From Hwanghaeella sp. (GTDB lineage: Bacteria > Pseudomonadota > Alphaproteobacteria > UBA8366 > Aestuariispiraceae), in the NCBI GenBank assembly GCA_028282025.1, contig JANQIT010000324.1:1-32973 (forward strand): DNA of 32,973 nt. Direction: 5' to 3'. Below the pieces are notes generated by a model, which was given only the letters and a program-made list of their open reading frames with translations, was not told the DNA's origin and ran no database searches. Shown here in pieces: positions 13,829 through 24,238 of the stretch. The translations under genes and the position numbers were made by a program. Position 1 is the first letter of the stretch. The number at the start of each line of letters is the position of its first letter.

Positions 13829-13876
13829 TGGTGGGCTGTATAGGATTCGAACCTATGACCCGCTGATTAAGAGTCA
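13829..13876 (-). repeat. attL: displaced 3' segment of tRNA-Lys
   Basis: TGGTGGGCTGTATAGGATTCGAACCTATGACCCGCTGATTAAGAGTCA, identical to 24163-24210. Confidence 0.95.
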
Positions 13877-14004: not shown

Positions 14005-14025
14005 TGCTTACCTATTGCTTACCCG
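14005..14025 (+). repeat. Candidate integrase arm-type site pair (left)
   Basis: TGCTTACCTATTGCTTACCCG, exact 21-bp match to 24096-24116; a related pair lies at 14095-14114 (TGCTTACCCGAATGCTTACC). Confidence 0.65.
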
Positions 14026-14553: not shown

Positions 14554-15693
14554 ATGCCGAAACTCACCAAGCGATTTGTCGATATAGTCCGGCCTGCCGA
14601 GAAGGATGTCTTTCACTGGGATGATGACATTCCGGGTTTTGGATTGCGTGTCAAACCGTCAGGGGTGAAGAGCTACCTTGTACAGTACCGACAGGGGAAA
14701 CGGTCCAGGCGCATGACGTTGGGGCGGCACGGCGTCATCACAGCCGACGAAGCCCGCAAGCTCGCCAAGAAGGAACTCGGGGCCGTAGCACACGGCAAAG
14801 ACCCGGCTCAGGAGCGTGCAGACGACCGGCAAGCACCAACTGTAGGAGAGTTGGCCGCCGACTACATGGAGCGCCACGCGCGGCCCAATAAGCGCCCCTC
14901 GTCGATCCGTAACGACCGGCAGATGTTGGACAACCAGATCCTTCCCAAACTGGGCGCACAGAAGGTTGCCGATGTGACACGGCGCGATGTGGAGTCGATC
15001 TTCCTTGGCCTGTCCAAAACGCCATACCGGGCCAACCGGGTTCGCGCACTGCTGTCGAAGATGTTCTCCCTCGCCGTTCAGTGGGGCTGGCGCGCCGACA
15101 ACCCGGTTCTTGGCCTCCCCAAGTATCAAGAGGAAATGCGGGAGCGTTGGCTTCGGCAAGAGGAACTGGATCGGCTATTCGAGGCCCTCGATAAGCACCC
15201 AAATCAGAAATGCGCCAACATCGTCCGCTTGCTCGTCCTGACCGGTGCACGGAAGAGCGAAGTCCTAAAAATGACATGGGACCAAGTGGACCTTGACCGT
15301 GGCGTCTGGACTAAACCCTCGCATCTTACAAAACAGAAAAAGAACCAGCATTTCCCACTGTCGGATGCAGCGATGCAGATCTTGGCCAGCATAGATGCCG
15401 CACGGGGGGATCGCAGCGCCTACGTCTTTCCTAGTCGCCTCTCAGCGGATGAGCCGACACAAGACATCAAACGTTTCTGGCAGGAGATACAGCGCGACGC
15501 CGATCTAACCGATGTTCGAATGCACGATCTTCGTCACACCTTCGCATCACATCTTGTGTCGAGCGGTACTAGCGAGGCTATCGTCGGGCGTCTATTGGGG
15601 CACACGCAACCTCAAACCACGCGGCGTTATGCACACTTGGCCGACGATCCGCTAAGGGAAGCAGCGAACAGGTTCGGCCGTACTGCTGGTTGA
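14554..15693 (+). CDS. int: Tyrosine-type site-specific integrase (P4-like, N-terminal DUF4102)
   Basis: DUF4102 'DIPGFGLRVKPSGVKSYLVQYRQGKRSRRMTLG'; catalytic 'TGARKSEVL', 'HDLRHTFASHLVSSG', 'LLGHTQPQTTRRYAHL'. Confidence 0.95.
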   Translation: MPKLTKRFVDIVRPAEKDVFHWDDDIPGFGLRVKPSGVKSYLVQYRQGKRSRRMTLGRHGVITADEARKLAKKELGAVAHGKDPAQERADDRQAPTVGELAADYMERHARPNKRPSSIRNDRQMLDNQILPKLGAQKVADVTRRDVESIFLGLSKTPYRANRVRALLSKMFSLAVQWGWRADNPVLGLPKYQEEMRERWLRQEELDRLFEALDKHPNQKCANIVRLLVLTGARKSEVLKMTWDQVDLDRGVWTKPSHLTKQKKNQHFPLSDAAMQILASIDAARGDRSAYVFPSRLSADEPTQDIKRFWQEIQRDADLTDVRMHDLRHTFASHLVSSGTSEAIVGRLLGHTQPQTTRRYAHLADDPLREAANRFGRTAG

Positions 15694-15849: not shown

Positions 15850-16428
15850 ATGCCGAAAGTGATTTACGTTACCGGTGCGCCAGCAGCAGGCAAGAGCTCA
15901 ACGCTCAGCCAAATTTCTGCCCGCATACCAACCGTCAGCGTTTGGGAGTATGGTGAAAAACTCACAGAGCATGTGGCGCAAAAAAGTTCGAGCCAACTCA
16001 ACCAGACCGACCTTCGTTCGCAATCTTCACAAGTCGTGACGACGAAAGATGTTGCTGAAGTAGATGCAGCGCTTCTTGCGTTTGTCGAAAACGAACGAGC
16101 CCGAAAACACATTCTAGTCGACAGCCACCCAGTCACAAAAGAGTCCTACGGTTTTCGGGTGACGCCATTTTCACTTCACCAGTTTTCGTCCCTACGACCG
16201 GATGAAATCTGGATGCTATTTGTCTGTCCCCAAACAACAAGACAGCGGATCGAAAATGACCCAGGTGGGCGTCCAATGGTCACTGAAGAAGAGGCTCGGA
16301 CCCATACACTAATCCAGGCATCAGTTGCAGCAACGTATGGGATGTCCACCGGGTGTCCGATTTACATGTTCGACACCTCATGTCCTCAGGAAGAGTTGGT
16401 AGAGCGCCTAATTGGGCGACTCACATGA
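15850..16428 (+). CDS. P-loop kinase resembling archaeal-type adenylate kinase (AdkA) (ORF opens at 15697)
   Basis: Walker A 'VTGAPAAGKSS'; 'LVDSHPVTKESYGFRVTPFSLHQFSSLRPDEIWMLFV...RQRIENDPGGRPMVTEEEARTHTLIQASVAATYGMSTGCPIYMF' parallels the AdkA C-terminal architecture. Confidence 0.7.
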   Translation: MPKVIYVTGAPAAGKSSTLSQISARIPTVSVWEYGEKLTEHVAQKSSSQLNQTDLRSQSSQVVTTKDVAEVDAALLAFVENERARKHILVDSHPVTKESYGFRVTPFSLHQFSSLRPDEIWMLFVCPQTTRQRIENDPGGRPMVTEEEARTHTLIQASVAATYGMSTGCPIYMFDTSCPQEELVERLIGRLT

Positions 16429-17348
16429 ATAAGGTATCGGACAAGGCAAGAAGAATGAAAAGCCCCGAAAGCCCAAAATCTGTTGGTAGACAGGAAAGTG
16501 GTGCAGCGAGAGCAGAGAGCCGCAGGGTAGATCTGCGAAAAGCCATAAACGCTGTCTCCGACGTAGTTCAAAATAGGCCTCGGCCCCTCAGAGTCTTCGA
16601 TCAGATACACATGAAGACTGGAGATATGGTCTTACAGAGTGAGATGATTGCTGACTGGGCCGACGGGAAGCGGTTGGCTTTTATTGGTGATGGAGATGCG
16701 ATCAGCGTTTGCGTAGCTTATCTCCACGCTCGAGAGGTGCTTACGTTTGGCCCGTCCCTAATCACAGTATTCGATTTCGACGAACGGACAGTTGAGGCTG
16801 TCAAGAATTTTGCTGACCGGGAAGGTATTACGAAACTGGATGCACAACTCTACAACGTTCTTGATGCTTTCCCGGAGATGGGACGCTTTGATTGTTTCTA
16901 TACCAATCCCCCTTGGGGAGCTTCAAACAACGGAGAGAGTGTAAACGTGTTCGTAGAACGCGGCATAGAGGCGACAGGCCATATGGGGGAAGGCGTTGTT
17001 GTAATTGCGGATGATGACGAACTTGATTGGCCAAAACAGGTTCTAGCAAATGTGCAAGGATTTGCAGCGGGGCATGGGTTCTATGTTTCTCGTATGCAGC
17101 GAAAGATTCACGAATATCATCTTGACGATGCACCGGAGCTGAGGTCGTGCAATTTGTATCTTGCTGCACTACCGGACAACCGCGTTCCCGCATCGAGTGT
17201 GCCAATTACGGATGCACAGCGTCTCGAGAACTTCTATGGTCTGTCGCAAAATCCGAGGGTTCGGTATGTCCTTGCTCGGCGGCGATTGGACTATGGTGTC
17301 GCGCATGAAGACGAGTACGAGCTGGAGTATTTAGAAGATGACGACTAA
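16425..17348 (+). CDS. BpsA/DUF43-like Rossmann-fold enzyme (SAM- or dcSAM-dependent) with NPPWG motif (ORF opens at 16353)
   Basis: 'LAFIGDGDAISVCVAYL', 'ITVFDFDERTVEAVKNFADREGI', 'FDCFYTNPPWGASNNGESVNVFVERGIEAT'; ATGA overlap with the upstream gene. Confidence 0.65.
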   Translation: MNKVSDKARRMKSPESPKSVGRQESGAARAESRRVDLRKAINAVSDVVQNRPRPLRVFDQIHMKTGDMVLQSEMIADWADGKRLAFIGDGDAISVCVAYLHAREVLTFGPSLITVFDFDERTVEAVKNFADREGITKLDAQLYNVLDAFPEMGRFDCFYTNPPWGASNNGESVNVFVERGIEATGHMGEGVVVIADDDELDWPKQVLANVQGFAAGHGFYVSRMQRKIHEYHLDDAPELRSCNLYLAALPDNRVPASSVPITDAQRLENFYGLSQNPRVRYVLARRRLDYGVAHEDEYELEYLEDDD

Positions 17349-17922
17349 TGAAATAATAAGACCTGGCGCTGGTGTGCTTTTCATGAAAGTGGGTACCCAT
17401 GCAAATGAGAGTCTCGCAGACATAATCGAGCGTAAGAAAGAAGAGATCGATAGTACTGGATTTGGGATGTGGGGCTATGGTGGGAACACTTGTCATCCAG
17501 GGTCGATGGTTCAGCCATTTGCTCGAAGCTTCGCGGAACGAGATCAATCCATTTATCTGTGTATGGAAGAAATCGAGTCCAAGCATTTTGCCAGTGGCGT
17601 TGCGGCCGAATACTCTGTTGACGGCGAAACTTGGGAAGAAATACCGGATACAGTTGAGGTTAGAGGTTCGCGCTATGCATTGGTTGTCGATGAGTTACAC
17701 GAGCAACACTTCATGCTGCCACTGGAGAAAACACGAGTTCCAGTAGGCCCGAGTACGGGCCGGCTCGGGAGCCGTTACATTAAAGGGCAAGTAGACAAAG
17801 CTTGTTTGGAGATCCTCGACGAACCTGAGCGGTCAAATGAAGAAGATCAACGCGAAGTCGAGATCCACCTCGTTTCTAGATTGAGAGATCCTTATGCGGT
17901 GTTTCTGAGAGGCGAAAGGTGA
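17338..17922 (+). CDS. Conserved-looking hypothetical protein, 'SL..II.RK..E...WG.GGN' family
   Basis: 194-aa ORF overlapping the upstream stop by 11 bp; motif shared with the 20445-21194 product. Confidence 0.6.
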   Translation: MTTNEIIRPGAGVLFMKVGTHANESLADIIERKKEEIDSTGFGMWGYGGNTCHPGSMVQPFARSFAERDQSIYLCMEEIESKHFASGVAAEYSVDGETWEEIPDTVEVRGSRYALVVDELHEQHFMLPLEKTRVPVGPSTGRLGSRYIKGQVDKACLEILDEPERSNEEDQREVEIHLVSRLRDPYAVFLRGER

Positions 17923-17971
17923 AGTGGCCGCTGGAATGGGACCAGTTACGCCCGCTTTCCACATGCTATAG

Positions 17972-18682
17972 ATGACGAAGGTGCTTTTGGAATCGCCGGT
18001 GTTGATAACTGACGCACTCGGCTTTTCTCAAACTATAGGATCCACAAGTATAGGTGACCTCAAAGAACTTGGGGAGAACCTCGAGCGTCAATTTCACGAG
18101 TTCGATGCAAAAGTACCTCGTAAGTTTGCCTTGGTCTCCGGCTCGAAGGTCATTGGCACGCGTGAGTTTGCAACGCTTCGCTTCAATGACATGTTTGTTC
18201 TGCATGCGACCCGGAAGATACAGGATAGCGCACTAGCTTTCCTCATTAGCGGATCACTTTTGTTTCATAAAATGCTCTTGGAAGGGCAAATTCCTAGAGG
18301 TGGCCTTGGTTTTGGTGAGATCTACCGGTCTGGGGATTTGCTCATAGGTAATGGTTTTCTTGATGCCTACCATGCAGCAGAGAAGCGCGATGACAGATCG
18401 CGCAACATATGTGCCGTGCAGTTGTCGCTAACGTTTTTGAGAACCATACCAAACACGGAACATGTCTATAGGTTGCTCTGTAGATATGACGGAAACTTTT
18501 ACATTCACCCATACACGCTGACCGATCCGGATATGGGGTTATTTTCGCCAGGACGAGTATTGAGGTTATTGCAAGCGTCTGGCGCAAATGGCGAAAAGCT
18601 TGTTGCGACCGAACGGTTCCTGGAGGGGTTGGAGGACTACGACTCGGCCAAACTGGATAGATCGGATGATAGACCAGGGTAG
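17972..18682 (+). CDS. Divergent class III nucleotide-cyclase-like protein
   Basis: 'VLITDALGFSQTI' (metal-Asp strand), 'LRFNDMFVL' (second Asp), 'GQIPRGGLGFGEIYRSGDLLIGNGFLDAYHAAEK' typical of degenerate cyclase homology domains. Confidence 0.55.
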   Translation: MTKVLLESPVLITDALGFSQTIGSTSIGDLKELGENLERQFHEFDAKVPRKFALVSGSKVIGTREFATLRFNDMFVLHATRKIQDSALAFLISGSLLFHKMLLEGQIPRGGLGFGEIYRSGDLLIGNGFLDAYHAAEKRDDRSRNICAVQLSLTFLRTIPNTEHVYRLLCRYDGNFYIHPYTLTDPDMGLFSPGRVLRLLQASGANGEKLVATERFLEGLEDYDSAKLDRSDDRPG

Positions 18683-18742: not shown

Positions 18743-19408
18743 TTAGCGGTGAAGAATGGAGAAGTCTTCACCGGGTACCAGCACCTTAGGTGCTTCTTTC
18801 CGCAAGCTCTCAATGTAGCTAGTGAGGGCGTTCAGAATGAGTGGAGGCTCTGTTTCGTCGCTAGTGCAGCTGAAGCATATACTGATTGCACGATCAACGT
18901 TCGGCTCGGCACACACCCTGTCTCGTGTGGAAGGAATCCAGTAATTTAGTACTAGGTGGGCGATAAGCTGTTCGAAGCAGCCAATGCATTCTGTTACTTT
19001 ACCATCACCAACAACGGAAATTGCACGGATTGCGCGTTTGTCTCCGGTAACCATGAGTTTTCCAGAACGATTGATGAGTATTGCTAGTAGCTGGCTTTCA
19101 CCTCCATCAAGCTCGAGATTGATGCGGCGTGCTTCCGCCTCGAAGTCTGCAGCGATCGCTAGTTCGCTTTCATCTGGTTCCAAGAAGGAGATTTGCTTCA
19201 GGATCGCTCCAAGCGCCGCCTTTGCTGTTTCGGCGCTTTGTATCCTCGAGCTTCGGTCGATCTTGTTGGTCACGACGTAACGTCCGACACCCAGCATAGA
19301 TGGAGACGCACCTGACGGAGAGAGTGCCTCAAGCATCTCTTGCTCTAGAGAGAAGCAAGCAGTCTTTAGAACGACATCGTTATCTAACAGAACTAGGTCA
19401 GCCATCAT
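18743..19408 (-). CDS. PIN-like domain protein (putative nuclease)
   Basis: 'MADLVLLDNDVVLKTA', 'LELDGGESQLLAILINRSGKLMVTGDKRAIRAI' match PIN acidic motifs; overlaps the ImmA-like gene by 11 bp. Confidence 0.65.
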   Translation of the reverse strand: MMADLVLLDNDVVLKTACFSLEQEMLEALSPSGASPSMLGVGRYVVTNKIDRSSRIQSAETAKAALGAILKQISFLEPDESELAIAADFEAEARRINLELDGGESQLLAILINRSGKLMVTGDKRAIRAISVVGDGKVTECIGCFEQLIAHLVLNYWIPSTRDRVCAEPNVDRAISICFSCTSDETEPPLILNALTSYIESLRKEAPKVLVPGEDFSILHR

Positions 19409-20390
19409 TCCCGGTCATAACCTCCTCCAGGTAGTAGGCTGAACCGTCACCTAGCGCTTCCCAGTTTATTTCCCCGTGTGCGATACCGTTCACTTCCTTC
19501 CAAGTCGGTTTCTGTTCTGAATATATAAACCTCATGGCTGCCATAGCGGCCGGCCACGCATTGCGCTGATACGCCAAGCACAATGCGAGTGTGCCGGGCT
19601 CTATCGCGTATTCCTTAGCGGCTGTGAGGGCCGACCTAGCCAACGTAGGAGCGTTGAAGCGATCAACATTGGTTTCAATTAGGGGCTGTGATGACCCAGT
19701 TAAGAGGGTGAGCGCAAACCGATCTGCTTCGTTCTCTTGTTCGTCATCGCCCTTGGCACGGGCTGGGTCTTCCAGATCCACAAGGGCTGGTGCGTCTGCT
19801 AGGTGTCTGAGCACTATGTGGCCCAATTCATGCGCCAACGTGAATGCAACCGGTGCCGGGTACAGTGCATTCCGGCCCAGTAGGATCGCGTAGCGATCTC
19901 CAATTCGCACGGCCATAGCATGCATAGACTTCGCTTCTAACGGGAATACGCGGAGGTAGATGACAGGAATTCCAATAGCCCAGCATGTCGCTATCAAAGT
20001 GCGTAGGTCGACAAATTCGTTTTTTGCTAGGATTGCTCCTCGCAGTTGCTCTGCAGTATCAATTGTTGTGTGTGGGGTATGTAGGGTACGGAGTAAGACT
20101 CCCCCAATAGACATCCCAAATGAAGTTAGAGCTCCTTTTTGGAGTTCGTCTTTCGCTGAGAGGTTCTTAAACAGCGCTTCGTCATTCCAGACAAACTCGA
20201 CCCTTTCACCTAGTAGTGGTTTCGGCTCCAAGCCGAGGCGTCGGGCAATTGCAAAACGCAGCTCTGCCCGGCCGGAGGGCGATTGGGCGGCTTCGTCCGT
20301 CCACCACTTTGGCCAAGCAGCTTCAATTGCACTTCGACTAATTCCTGCTTCCAGCAGCAGTTCAACCAGCGAACTCTCATCCTTGCCCAA
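19398..20390 (-). CDS. ImmA/IrrE-family metallo-endopeptidase
   Basis: 'PVAFTLAHELGHIVLRHL' HExxH motif and 'DEQENEADRFALTLL' third zinc-ligand region. Confidence 0.88.
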   Translation of the reverse strand: MGKDESSLVELLLEAGISRSAIEAAWPKWWTDEAAQSPSGRAELRFAIARRLGLEPKPLLGERVEFVWNDEALFKNLSAKDELQKGALTSFGMSIGGVLLRTLHTPHTTIDTAEQLRGAILAKNEFVDLRTLIATCWAIGIPVIYLRVFPLEAKSMHAMAVRIGDRYAILLGRNALYPAPVAFTLAHELGHIVLRHLADAPALVDLEDPARAKGDDEQENEADRFALTLLTGSSQPLIETNVDRFNAPTLARSALTAAKEYAIEPGTLALCLAYQRNAWPAAMAAMRFIYSEQKPTWKEVNGIAHGEINWEALGDGSAYYLEEVMTGNDG

Positions 20391-20444: not shown

Positions 20445-21194
20445 CTACAGCAGCGCGCCTTGAGCTTGTGCTCCCCTTAGCATGCTTGGGCCGCTGCGAA
20501 TATACTCTACAGCCTCGTGCCATTCGTTTGGGTTGCAGCCTTCAATTGAATTAAGGAGAGATACTTTATCACTCTGCAGCTCCAAGGGGTCCAACAATCG
20601 AACCCAATAACTATCTGTGAGAAAGGCAGAGAGATTTACTTCATAGTCCGCATTTTCGGTATCGCTCGCGACCTTCTCAAGTAGTGCAGTTACTTGTGAT
20701 GGGCCCACCGGGGCACGATTTCCGCCAGCATTTCGGTACGCTGACGGGTCAAATGGGACTTCGTGCTGAACTGAAAGACGATGATCGGATCGGCAAATGA
20801 GCGCATTGTGTCTACTTTTAGGCCCTTTTGCGCTGTCTCCACGGCTGGTTACTAGTGCACTTCGTGGGAGAGGCTTAACGACACCATACATGTCAATGTA
20901 TGAGCGCCAAACTACGGTTCGCGTCGGCTCCACATCGACCATTTTTGGCTTCGACTTCATGACAGAAAAGACGGCGCTTACAGGCGTCTTCGAACGGGCT
21001 AAGGCGCTTGTGATAGTTGCAGGTGGGTTGCCAACACCCCAAAAGAATACTCCGCCGCTTGCTACTCGTTCCGTCTCTTTTCGTGAGACAATGCTGCTGA
21101 GCGATTGTCCCGCCTCGGCCTGCATACGGGACCAGCATACGAACTCCCCTATCTCTTTGTGTTTGCGAAGTTCACCCACTGCATTAACCGACAT
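20445..21194 (-). CDS. Hypothetical protein, second member of the 'SL..I..RK..E...WG.GN' family
   Basis: 'AEAGQSLSSIVSRKETERVASGGVFFWGVGNPP', C-terminal 'DYEVNLSAFLTDSYWVRLL'; 54 bp upstream of and co-directional with immA-like. Confidence 0.6.
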   Translation of the reverse strand: MSVNAVGELRKHKEIGEFVCWSRMQAEAGQSLSSIVSRKETERVASGGVFFWGVGNPPATITSALARSKTPVSAVFSVMKSKPKMVDVEPTRTVVWRSYIDMYGVVKPLPRSALVTSRGDSAKGPKSRHNALICRSDHRLSVQHEVPFDPSAYRNAGGNRAPVGPSQVTALLEKVASDTENADYEVNLSAFLTDSYWVRLLDPLELQSDKVSLLNSIEGCNPNEWHEAVEYIRSGPSMLRGAQAQGALL

Positions 21195-21295: not shown

Positions 21296-22441
21296 CTATT
21301 CAAGGAACACTAAACGGTCGCGGGTCCGCCGAATTGCTTGTTGGAGATCGTAGCTGTTGCCCTTGAGCCGTTTGGTTACTTCGCGTGCGACGAGCTCTGG
21401 CATTTTGGCCTCAATTTCTTCGTCACTAAGGCCCTTTGAAACGGCCAGACCCACCGCATTGCCGGTGCAAAGGGCGAGGTAGGTGTCGTGGGCGTCTCCT
21501 CGTGCAATCTCTTTTACCTGGTTTGGGGTCAGCCCTGACCGGAGTTCGCTCAGTTCTTGGGCTGCGATGCTCTGTGCCGCGTGCCAGATCGGGTGCAGTT
21601 CTTGTCGCGAAACGTTGCTGTCGCCCTGATGGTCCGCGAGGTATCGCACTTCTTGCAGGGCGTTCGCGATGACATCGCCTATGCCTGCCCCTAGATCGTC
21701 AATTGTCCGGATTTGATACTTGTCCTTCAGCTCCTTCTTTCCGGCGCGAACCTCGATCCGCCAGACCTCCAGATCAGGATCTTTACGGTCCTTGCCCCAG
21801 GCGGCGAACCAGAAGTGTTTGCGCCTCTCGATGGCTTCGCGCCTTTTGTTGTAGAGAATGATTTGGCGGCCTGGCTGCTTGCCGATTGTAACGCTCTCCG
21901 CGCGCCGTCCCCGGAAAACGGTTGCGGGCTGACTGCGGTCGTCTGTAGCGGCCTGGTCGCCCCAATAGGGCATGACCTTGCAATGCGAGTGCGCGACTAC
22001 TTGTTCCGGGTGCAGTTCAAAGCTGTGGGTCTGAAAATCCATCGCGAAGTCCACCCGGTTAATCGCGTGATTTACGATCCGGCCACCCATACCGATGAAT
22101 TCGGTATGCAGATTTGCGACGCAGGTTTGCCATCCATGAGCGAGTAAGGCGGTTGCGTGGGGTGAGGCGAACAAGTTCCACTGGCTTGCGTCCGCATTCT
22201 TTTTGACCATCCATTTCGCGCCTAAGGGGCCGGTATCAAGAAGATAGCGGTATCCGCCCTTCATGCCGTGACCAGCAATGTGGGCCTGAACCTTTTCTGG
22301 CCCGATTTCGACCAACACTTTGTCTTGCCGTGTTTCCGCTTCTTCGCGGGCTGCGTCCAGTTTCTCCATCACATCGACAGGCAGGGCACCCGTGAACGCG
22401 ATGTCCAATGTATCGAACCCGGCATAAAGCAAATTCGCCAT
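21296..22441 (-). CDS. Replication initiation factor / MobT-like protein (Rep_trans, PF02486-like)
   Basis: 'FDTLDIAFTG' start, 'NRVDFAMDF', 'GRQIILYNKRREAI', 'DLEVWRIEVRAGKKELK' motif order. Confidence 0.75.
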   Translation of the reverse strand: MANLLYAGFDTLDIAFTGALPVDVMEKLDAAREEAETRQDKVLVEIGPEKVQAHIAGHGMKGGYRYLLDTGPLGAKWMVKKNADASQWNLFASPHATALLAHGWQTCVANLHTEFIGMGGRIVNHAINRVDFAMDFQTHSFELHPEQVVAHSHCKVMPYWGDQAATDDRSQPATVFRGRRAESVTIGKQPGRQIILYNKRREAIERRKHFWFAAWGKDRKDPDLEVWRIEVRAGKKELKDKYQIRTIDDLGAGIGDVIANALQEVRYLADHQGDSNVSRQELHPIWHAAQSIAAQELSELRSGLTPNQVKEIARGDAHDTYLALCTGNAVGLAVSKGLSDEEIEAKMPELVAREVTKRLKGNSYDLQQAIRRTRDRLVFLE

Positions 22442-22941: not shown

Positions 22942-23187
22942 TCACGTGGCTGCCTTGGACGTATGGGCGCAGCGCAGCCGCTCGCACCATTCAATCAGAT
23001 CCCGACGGCGATATCGTACGGACCGCTTCGACACTTTAATGAAATGAGGCCCGCCCCCTTTCACGCGCCACCCCTGTAAGGCGCGTATCGTATAGCTGAG
23101 AAATCCGGCTGCTTCGGTTTCGTCTATCAGGCGGTCCAGGTAGTCAGGATCGCGCGCCAGGTTTTCCGAAAGGTGCTGAAACTGCAT
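22942..23187 (-). CDS. AlpA/excisionase-type HTH protein
   Basis: 'LSYTIRALQGWRVKGGGPHFIKVSKRSVRYRRRDLIEWCERLR'. Confidence 0.8.
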   Translation of the reverse strand: MQFQHLSENLARDPDYLDRLIDETEAAGFLSYTIRALQGWRVKGGGPHFIKVSKRSVRYRRRDLIEWCERLRCAHTSKAAT

Positions 23188-24095: not shown

Positions 24096-24116
24096 TGCTT
24101 ACCTATTGCTTACCCG
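24096..24116 (+). repeat. Candidate integrase arm-type site pair (right)
   Basis: Exact direct copy of 14005-14025, 46 bp inside attR. Confidence 0.65.

Positions 24117-24162: not shown

Positions 24163-24238
<76 letters not shown>

Follow-up and report, generated by a model that had tools for sequence, protein, structure and literature searches.

The window, a stretch of 32,973 nucleotides from Hwanghaeella sp., carries a cassette whose conserved unit comprises five genes: B and C on one strand, followed tail-to-tail by E, F and G on the other. We put at about even odds (roughly 0.5) the reading that these five genes form one mobile conflict cassette, probably anti-phage and of the abortive-infection type, to which A and sometimes D are added. 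If true, this would add a system of five genes, present in Pseudomonadota, Actinomycetota and Acidobacteriota, that is built from a relative of polyamine synthases together with a new protein family, C/G; each cassette has two members of this family, which is also found by itself on phage-like contigs. A sequence-only reading of this DNA had proposed an undescribed multi-gene system on a mobile element, possibly for defence, and the present results support a recurrent, mobile and undescribed cassette with the look of a defence system; the boundary of four genes (A to D) that the earlier reading drew was not upheld.

The gene block and its conservation across genomes

Four plus-strand genes, A, B, C and D, directly follow the integrase gene (Table 1), and their predicted positions were all confirmed, as were the ATGA overlap of A and B (16425-16428), the 11-bp overlap of B and C (17338-17348) and the 49-bp gap between C and D (17923-17971). 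All four are genuine genes: A-C are kept in dozens of genomes and D in two (translated search). No family was found for C or D in Pfam, NCBIfam or PADLOC. The start codon of G is uncertain, and conservation of this protein starts near residue 17.

Table 1. Features of the cassette and of the element that carries it (positions in the window)
Feature	Position	Strand	Basis
Attachment-site repeat, one element end	13829-13876		48-nt perfect direct repeat of 24163-24210
Inner 21-nt repeat, within both ends	14005-14025 / 24096-24116		perfect repeat
Tyrosine integrase	14554-15693	+	Pfam Phage_integrase 1.2e-32; Arm-DNA-bind_3
A: AdkA-like P-loop kinase, optional component	15850-16428	+	AAA_17; AdkA structure matches
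B: BpsA/DUF43-fold SAM- or dcSAM-dependent transferase, core	16425-17348	+	BpsA_C
C: candidate nucleic-acid sensor, core, homologue of G	17338-17922	+	AlphaFold2, Foldseek, hhalign
D: divergent class III nucleotidyl-cyclase-like protein, rare accessory	17972-18682	+	hhalign via intermediate family
E: PIN-domain nuclease, core, predicted effector	18743-19408	-	Pfam PIN; invariant acidic residues
F: ImmA/IrrE (COG2856, M78) zinc metalloprotease with extra N-terminal domain, core	19398-20390	-	Peptidase_M78
G: second candidate sensor, core, homologue of C	20445-21194	-	hhalign with C; AlphaFold2
Rep-like protein of the element, weak	21296-22441	-	Rep_trans E 0.0099; phrog_1159 3.8e-5
Excisionase-like protein of the element	22942-23187	-	phrog_66 excisionase 1.6e-4
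Attachment-site repeat, other end (3' part of tRNA-Lys(CTT) gene)	24163-24210		perfect repeat
tRNA-Lys(CTT) gene	24163-24238	-	

Searching 84,980 species genomes with B retrieved 45 loci (n = 46 with the window), onto which all window proteins were mapped; loci with at least 11 kb of sequence are referred to as long (n = 40, including the window). B, C, E and F were present in all 40 long loci, and full-length G in 39, the contig of the remaining locus (L039) ending inside G. The arrangement was nearly always B-C followed tail-to-tail by the three convergent minus-strand genes E, F and G, with G inverted and diverging from F in nine loci and in the incomplete L039. A was found in 24 of the 40 long loci, lying downstream of G in L022, L040 and L045 and upstream of B in the others. 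D occurred in 3 of the 46 loci at two positions, namely between C and E (the window and L005) or beyond G (L012). The neighbourhood comparison therefore bore out the linkage of B with C, but A is optional and D rare, and the conserved unit is B-C plus the E-F-G genes that the sequence-only reading had left out.

The spacing of the genes was also conserved. B and C overlapped by about 10 nt across loci, E and F were coupled (mostly at -8 nt), and the stops of C and E overlapped (median, 11 nt), their distance being at most 54 nt in 37 of 41 loci; the four loci with wider spacing had D (L005) or inserted genes (L002, L003 and L042) at this junction. The protein distance matrices correlated pairwise (r = 0.66-0.90, with 0 of 500 permutations as high), to which shared host phylogeny may contribute, and this co-inheritance indicates that the two opposite-strand halves travel together.

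The hosts were mostly Alphaproteobacteria but also included Lysobacter, Dyella, Pseudonocardia, Nocardioides, Antrihabitans, Microbacterium and two Acidobacteria-group metagenome-assembled genomes. The distribution was rare and patchy, C being detected in 2 and G (clear matches) in 3 of 385 genomes of the class, and the B-C pair was not found in E. coli. A Pseudomonas koreensis plasmid carried a divergent copy (identity of B, 49%) in which A, B, C, E and F were all present. There, B, C and A follow one another in the same orientation, G lies on the opposite strand, and F-E is preceded by a separate HTH gene. In that copy, G (L136, 10016-10787) was split over two frames, reflecting a frameshift in either the gene or the assembly.

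In two loci a further, divergent B-C pair was present that shared about 45-60% identity with the pair of the window and had no E-F-G of its own (L011, 4584-6022; L019, 5865-7252), suggesting that B-C acts as a pair. The genes inserted in L002 (9432-11022), L003 (9420-11013) and L042 (9444-12476) lay exactly at the C/E junction, and some of those in L002 and L003 resembled mercury-transport proteins (MerT/MerP-like, by eye). The junction, where D also lies in the window, thus seems to tolerate cargo.

Protein families encoded by the cassette

B was assigned to the family of BpsA (N4-bis(aminopropyl)spermidine synthase), as had been proposed: it matched Pfam BpsA_C (1e-17), and its profile matched the BpsA structures 2qm3 and 5xnc (~5e-11) and, further away, METTL5 (1e-3). 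The motifs GDGD, DFDER and NPPWG were invariant in the 29 aligned B members. In Tk-BpsA, Asp159 and Asp160 of the GDDD motif position the aminopropyl group of dcSAM (PMC12979288). Several motifs are common to B and BpsA, which have the same type of catalytic domain, whereas the first of these Asp residues was Gly in 29/29 B members (GDGD), the DPPE-type motif of BpsA was replaced by NPPWG, and B belongs to a cassette and is not a polyamine gene. The loss of one dcSAM-positioning Asp, together with NPPWG, favours the use of SAM and N-methyl transfer, and B may, judging from these motifs, be a methyltransferase. Its acidic C-terminal tail, conserved in composition and without alignment to BpsA, resembles the aminopropyl-carrier region of that enzyme, so a polyamine-type reaction is conceivable. 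In view of these findings, B should not be annotated automatically as a spermidine-type synthase.

C and G are homologous (hhalign, 96.4%, E = 1.2e-9), and their profiles also gave cross-matches, that of C reaching G members down to 2.5e-8. Both AlphaFold2 models (pLDDT, 91 and 92 for C and G, respectively) showed a strand-helix-strand-helix-strand arrangement followed by further strands. YTH domains, which are readers of N6-methyladenine, accounted for most of the best 50 PDB matches of C in Foldseek, none of which was significant (best E = 0.098, TM = 0.26), and the matches of G were at noise level, with YTHDC1 among the best probabilities (0.11). Neither protein matched a Pfam family or showed similarity to the EVE profile, and PDB sequence searches with C, G and E returned nothing convincing. 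C and G are regarded as candidate nucleic-acid sensors with a putative fold. The structure and profile comparisons that the sequence-only reading had suggested supported the AdkA-like character of A and the BpsA-like character of B, and yielded no significant fold match for C.

Among 35 E members, 3 matched Pfam PIN (best, 9e-4), and D9, D11, E82, E104 and D123 were invariant in 42/42, leaving the acidic PIN active site intact. F matched Peptidase_M78 (PF06114, 3.7e-8), and H187, E188, H191, D216 and E219, which include HExxH and the third ligand (H187, E188, H191 and E219), were likewise invariant in 42/42. Profile searches with F gave no HTH match, and an N-terminal HTH was supported by no profile; the P. 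koreensis copy has its separate HTH-like gene before F. The earlier remark that no TIR or classical TM effector adjoins the block overlooks the PIN nuclease and the ImmA/IrrE protease, which are encoded directly downstream in 40/40 long loci.

The AdkA-like character of A was confirmed by matches to AAA_17 (3.4e-13) and to the archaeal AdkA structures 7owe (1.2e-13) and 1ki9 (2e-12), and its P-loop residues G9, G14 and K15 were invariant. For D, direct profile comparison with class III cyclases was not significant, and no PDB sequence match was found; its profile matched an intermediate 'FMDVLGFS' family (hhalign, 2.8e-10), which in turn matched class III cyclases (2e-6), with corresponding motifs aligned to each other. 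This chain supports the proposed cyclase assignment of D, which keeps both metal-Asp motifs. D was not found in annotated phages, plasmids or IMG/VR. The intermediate family was found in a Dyella genome and on plasmids; a Dyella cyclase-like gene considered as adjoining the cassette was ruled out, its locus not matching L041. The 'FMDVLGFS...RGG' family is widespread and annotated only as hypothetical (L126, 1345-2172; plasmid matches H6-H35).

Mobile element and defence neighbourhood

The attachment-site repeats, the integrase, the excisionase-like and weak Rep-like genes and the inner repeat (Table 1) together delimit an integrative element of ~10.3 kb in a tRNA-Lys gene, with the cassette as its main cargo. 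Other copies were located on plasmids, in Tn7-like elements and, as full cassettes, on IMG/VR contigs, one of which (L055) also encodes a primase/helicase and a ParB-methyltransferase gene. B and G were not found in annotated phages.

Known defence genes adjoined three rhizobial plasmid copies, comprising GajA/GajB-type (Gabija) genes on the Agrobacterium plasmid pLN1, AbiEi/AbiEii with an SMC-like ATPase in Rhizobium AB2/73, and Lamassu LmuA-LmuC-LmuB in Sinorhizobium fredii NXT3 (1e-108, 4.5e-50 and 1e-161, respectively). The 103 nearest neighbours of the genome loci had PADLOC matches that included GajA-type proteins and Pfam matches that included McrBC. This neighbourhood supports the defence reading qualitatively.

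When the eight window proteins were screened with PADLOC, as had also been suggested, no named system was matched at the system level and none of the proteins matched Pycsar; partial single-gene matches were obtained for B (mad2, 8e-8) and for F (capP, RmrA and PD-Lambda-2_B, 1.3e-5). No published description of the cassette, and no paper tying DUF43/COG1568/BpsA_C to defence, was found in the literature covered, which mostly excludes subscription papers and recent preprints.

Proposed function and comparison with known systems

In the toxin-antitoxin-like defence mechanism that we infer, including the reading of modified bases by C and G, the PIN RNase E would be the effector, and the ImmA/IrrE protease F would hold or release E, or cleave a repressor of E, as has been proposed for known PIN-COG2856 pairs (PMC2701414). 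B, drawing on SAM or dcSAM, would modify nucleic acids or nucleotides and would most likely act like an N-methyltransferase. The homologous proteins C, which would be co-translated with B, and G, which is encoded next to F, would be paired sensors of the modification state. Infection would alter this state, whereby F would be activated, E freed and RNA cut. As a specific writer-reader-executioner form of immunity, in which a repurposed BpsA-fold enzyme puts an unusual methyl or aminopropyl mark on nucleic acid, a homologous YTH-like pair from a family without a previous name reads whether the mark is present or lost, and the ImmA-type protease frees the PIN RNase, this scheme is tentative and, taken whole, rather unlikely. 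The cassette nevertheless makes testable both the control of a PIN RNase by an ImmA/IrrE protease and the wiring of such toxin-antitoxin pairs to the modification state of nucleic acids. Even if the idea of reader proteins is wrong, the linkage provides a defined unit for phage-challenge tests.

A plain addiction (toxin-antitoxin) or maintenance module, with E as toxin, F as antitoxin or regulator, B, C and G regulating expression and defence being incidental, seems possible, if somewhat improbable. The overlap of the E and F genes, the classing of PIN-COG2856 pairs as toxin-antitoxin (PMC2701414) and the presence of the cassette on integrative elements, plasmids and Tn7-like elements all accord with it; yet such pairs need two genes, whereas the long loci retain C, G and also B, with its invariant active-site-type motifs, and a location beside Gabija, AbiE and Lamassu is typical of defence. 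It is unlikely that B is a true aminopropyltransferase making a branched polyamine or an aminopropylated nucleic acid to which the other proteins respond: the Gly at the first GDDD Asp and NPPWG in place of the DPPE-type motif argue against this, despite the homology to BpsA, an acidic tail like the C-terminal aminopropyl carriers of Tk-BpsA (PMC12979288) and the annotation of plasmid copies as members of the bis-aminopropyl spermidine synthase family.

The sequence-only reading had suggested a nucleotide-modifying or signalling operon. A system of the Pycsar or CBASS kind, with A and D producing or adjusting a nucleotide signal, now appears very improbable. It draws on the AdkA-like nature of A and on the link of D to class III cyclases with both metal-Asp motifs kept, but A and D are missing from many loci (D present in 3/46, A in 24/40), no PycTM, PycTIR or Cap effector was found, and the PADLOC screen gave no Pycsar match. 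A Pycsar-like core was rejected because D occurs in so few loci and is absent from the other 384 genomes of the class that were searched, and the PIN nuclease and ImmA/IrrE protease of the long loci likewise mean that such signalling does not describe the core. The likeness to Pycsar is limited to the class III cyclase-like D, which is non-core and has the core genes C and E as its neighbours.

Returning to the conflict cassette, the closest parallels are found among modules with a PIN nuclease or an ImmA/IrrE peptidase. PIN and COG2856-Xre genes form putative operons that were proposed to be protease-controlled toxin systems (PMC2701414, Makarova 2009); the mobile PIN/RelE-COG2856 (ImmA/IrrE-Xre) modules have the same overlap of the PIN and ImmA/IrrE genes, whereas in the five-gene cassette this pair is tied to B, C and G, and F is without a detected standard Xre domain. 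PD-lambda-2, a three-gene system of the Xre-peptidase type that protects against phage (PMC9519451, Vassallo 2022), similarly combines a toxin-like protein, an ImmA/IrrE-type peptidase and a third protein, but its toxin is HigB rather than PIN, it is without a BpsA-like enzyme or C/G-type proteins, and F matches its B component weakly (1.3e-5). The closest concept in the literature is that of the (PIN)-GNAT-EVE, ASCH and AAA_17 operons (PMC7641849, Bell 2020). These mobile, defence-linked operons also bring together a PIN nuclease and a transferase with two proteins thought likely to bind modified bases, the second being PUA-like, and optionally an AAA_17 ATPase; the cassette differs in having a BpsA-like enzyme instead of GNAT, an added ImmA/IrrE protease, separate proteins rather than fusions and a homologous C/G pair unrecognisable as EVE or ASCH by sequence. 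Since it contains neither GNAT (no Pfam match) nor EVE (no profile similarity), it falls outside that group. We rate the cassette as a conflict module of the PIN-ImmA kind to which a BpsA-like enzyme and a new family of paired proteins have been added.

Homologues of G were also observed outside the cassette. IMG/VR contigs, including one of 411 kb, carried G homologues without B, C and E, at 8001-8609 in L057, 8001-8663 in L058, 8001-8561 in L059 and 8001-8591 in L063; in L057, the homologue adjoined a fragment whose match to F was confined to the initial ~60 residues. These copies are possibly decoys, counter-defence genes or remnants. On a Rhizobium phaseoli plasmid (L137, 3677-7909), a DUF4258 gene and a further gene of unknown type precede a G homologue, and tcmP, DUF5131 and restriction-modification genes come after it, so that G may serve in other systems as well.
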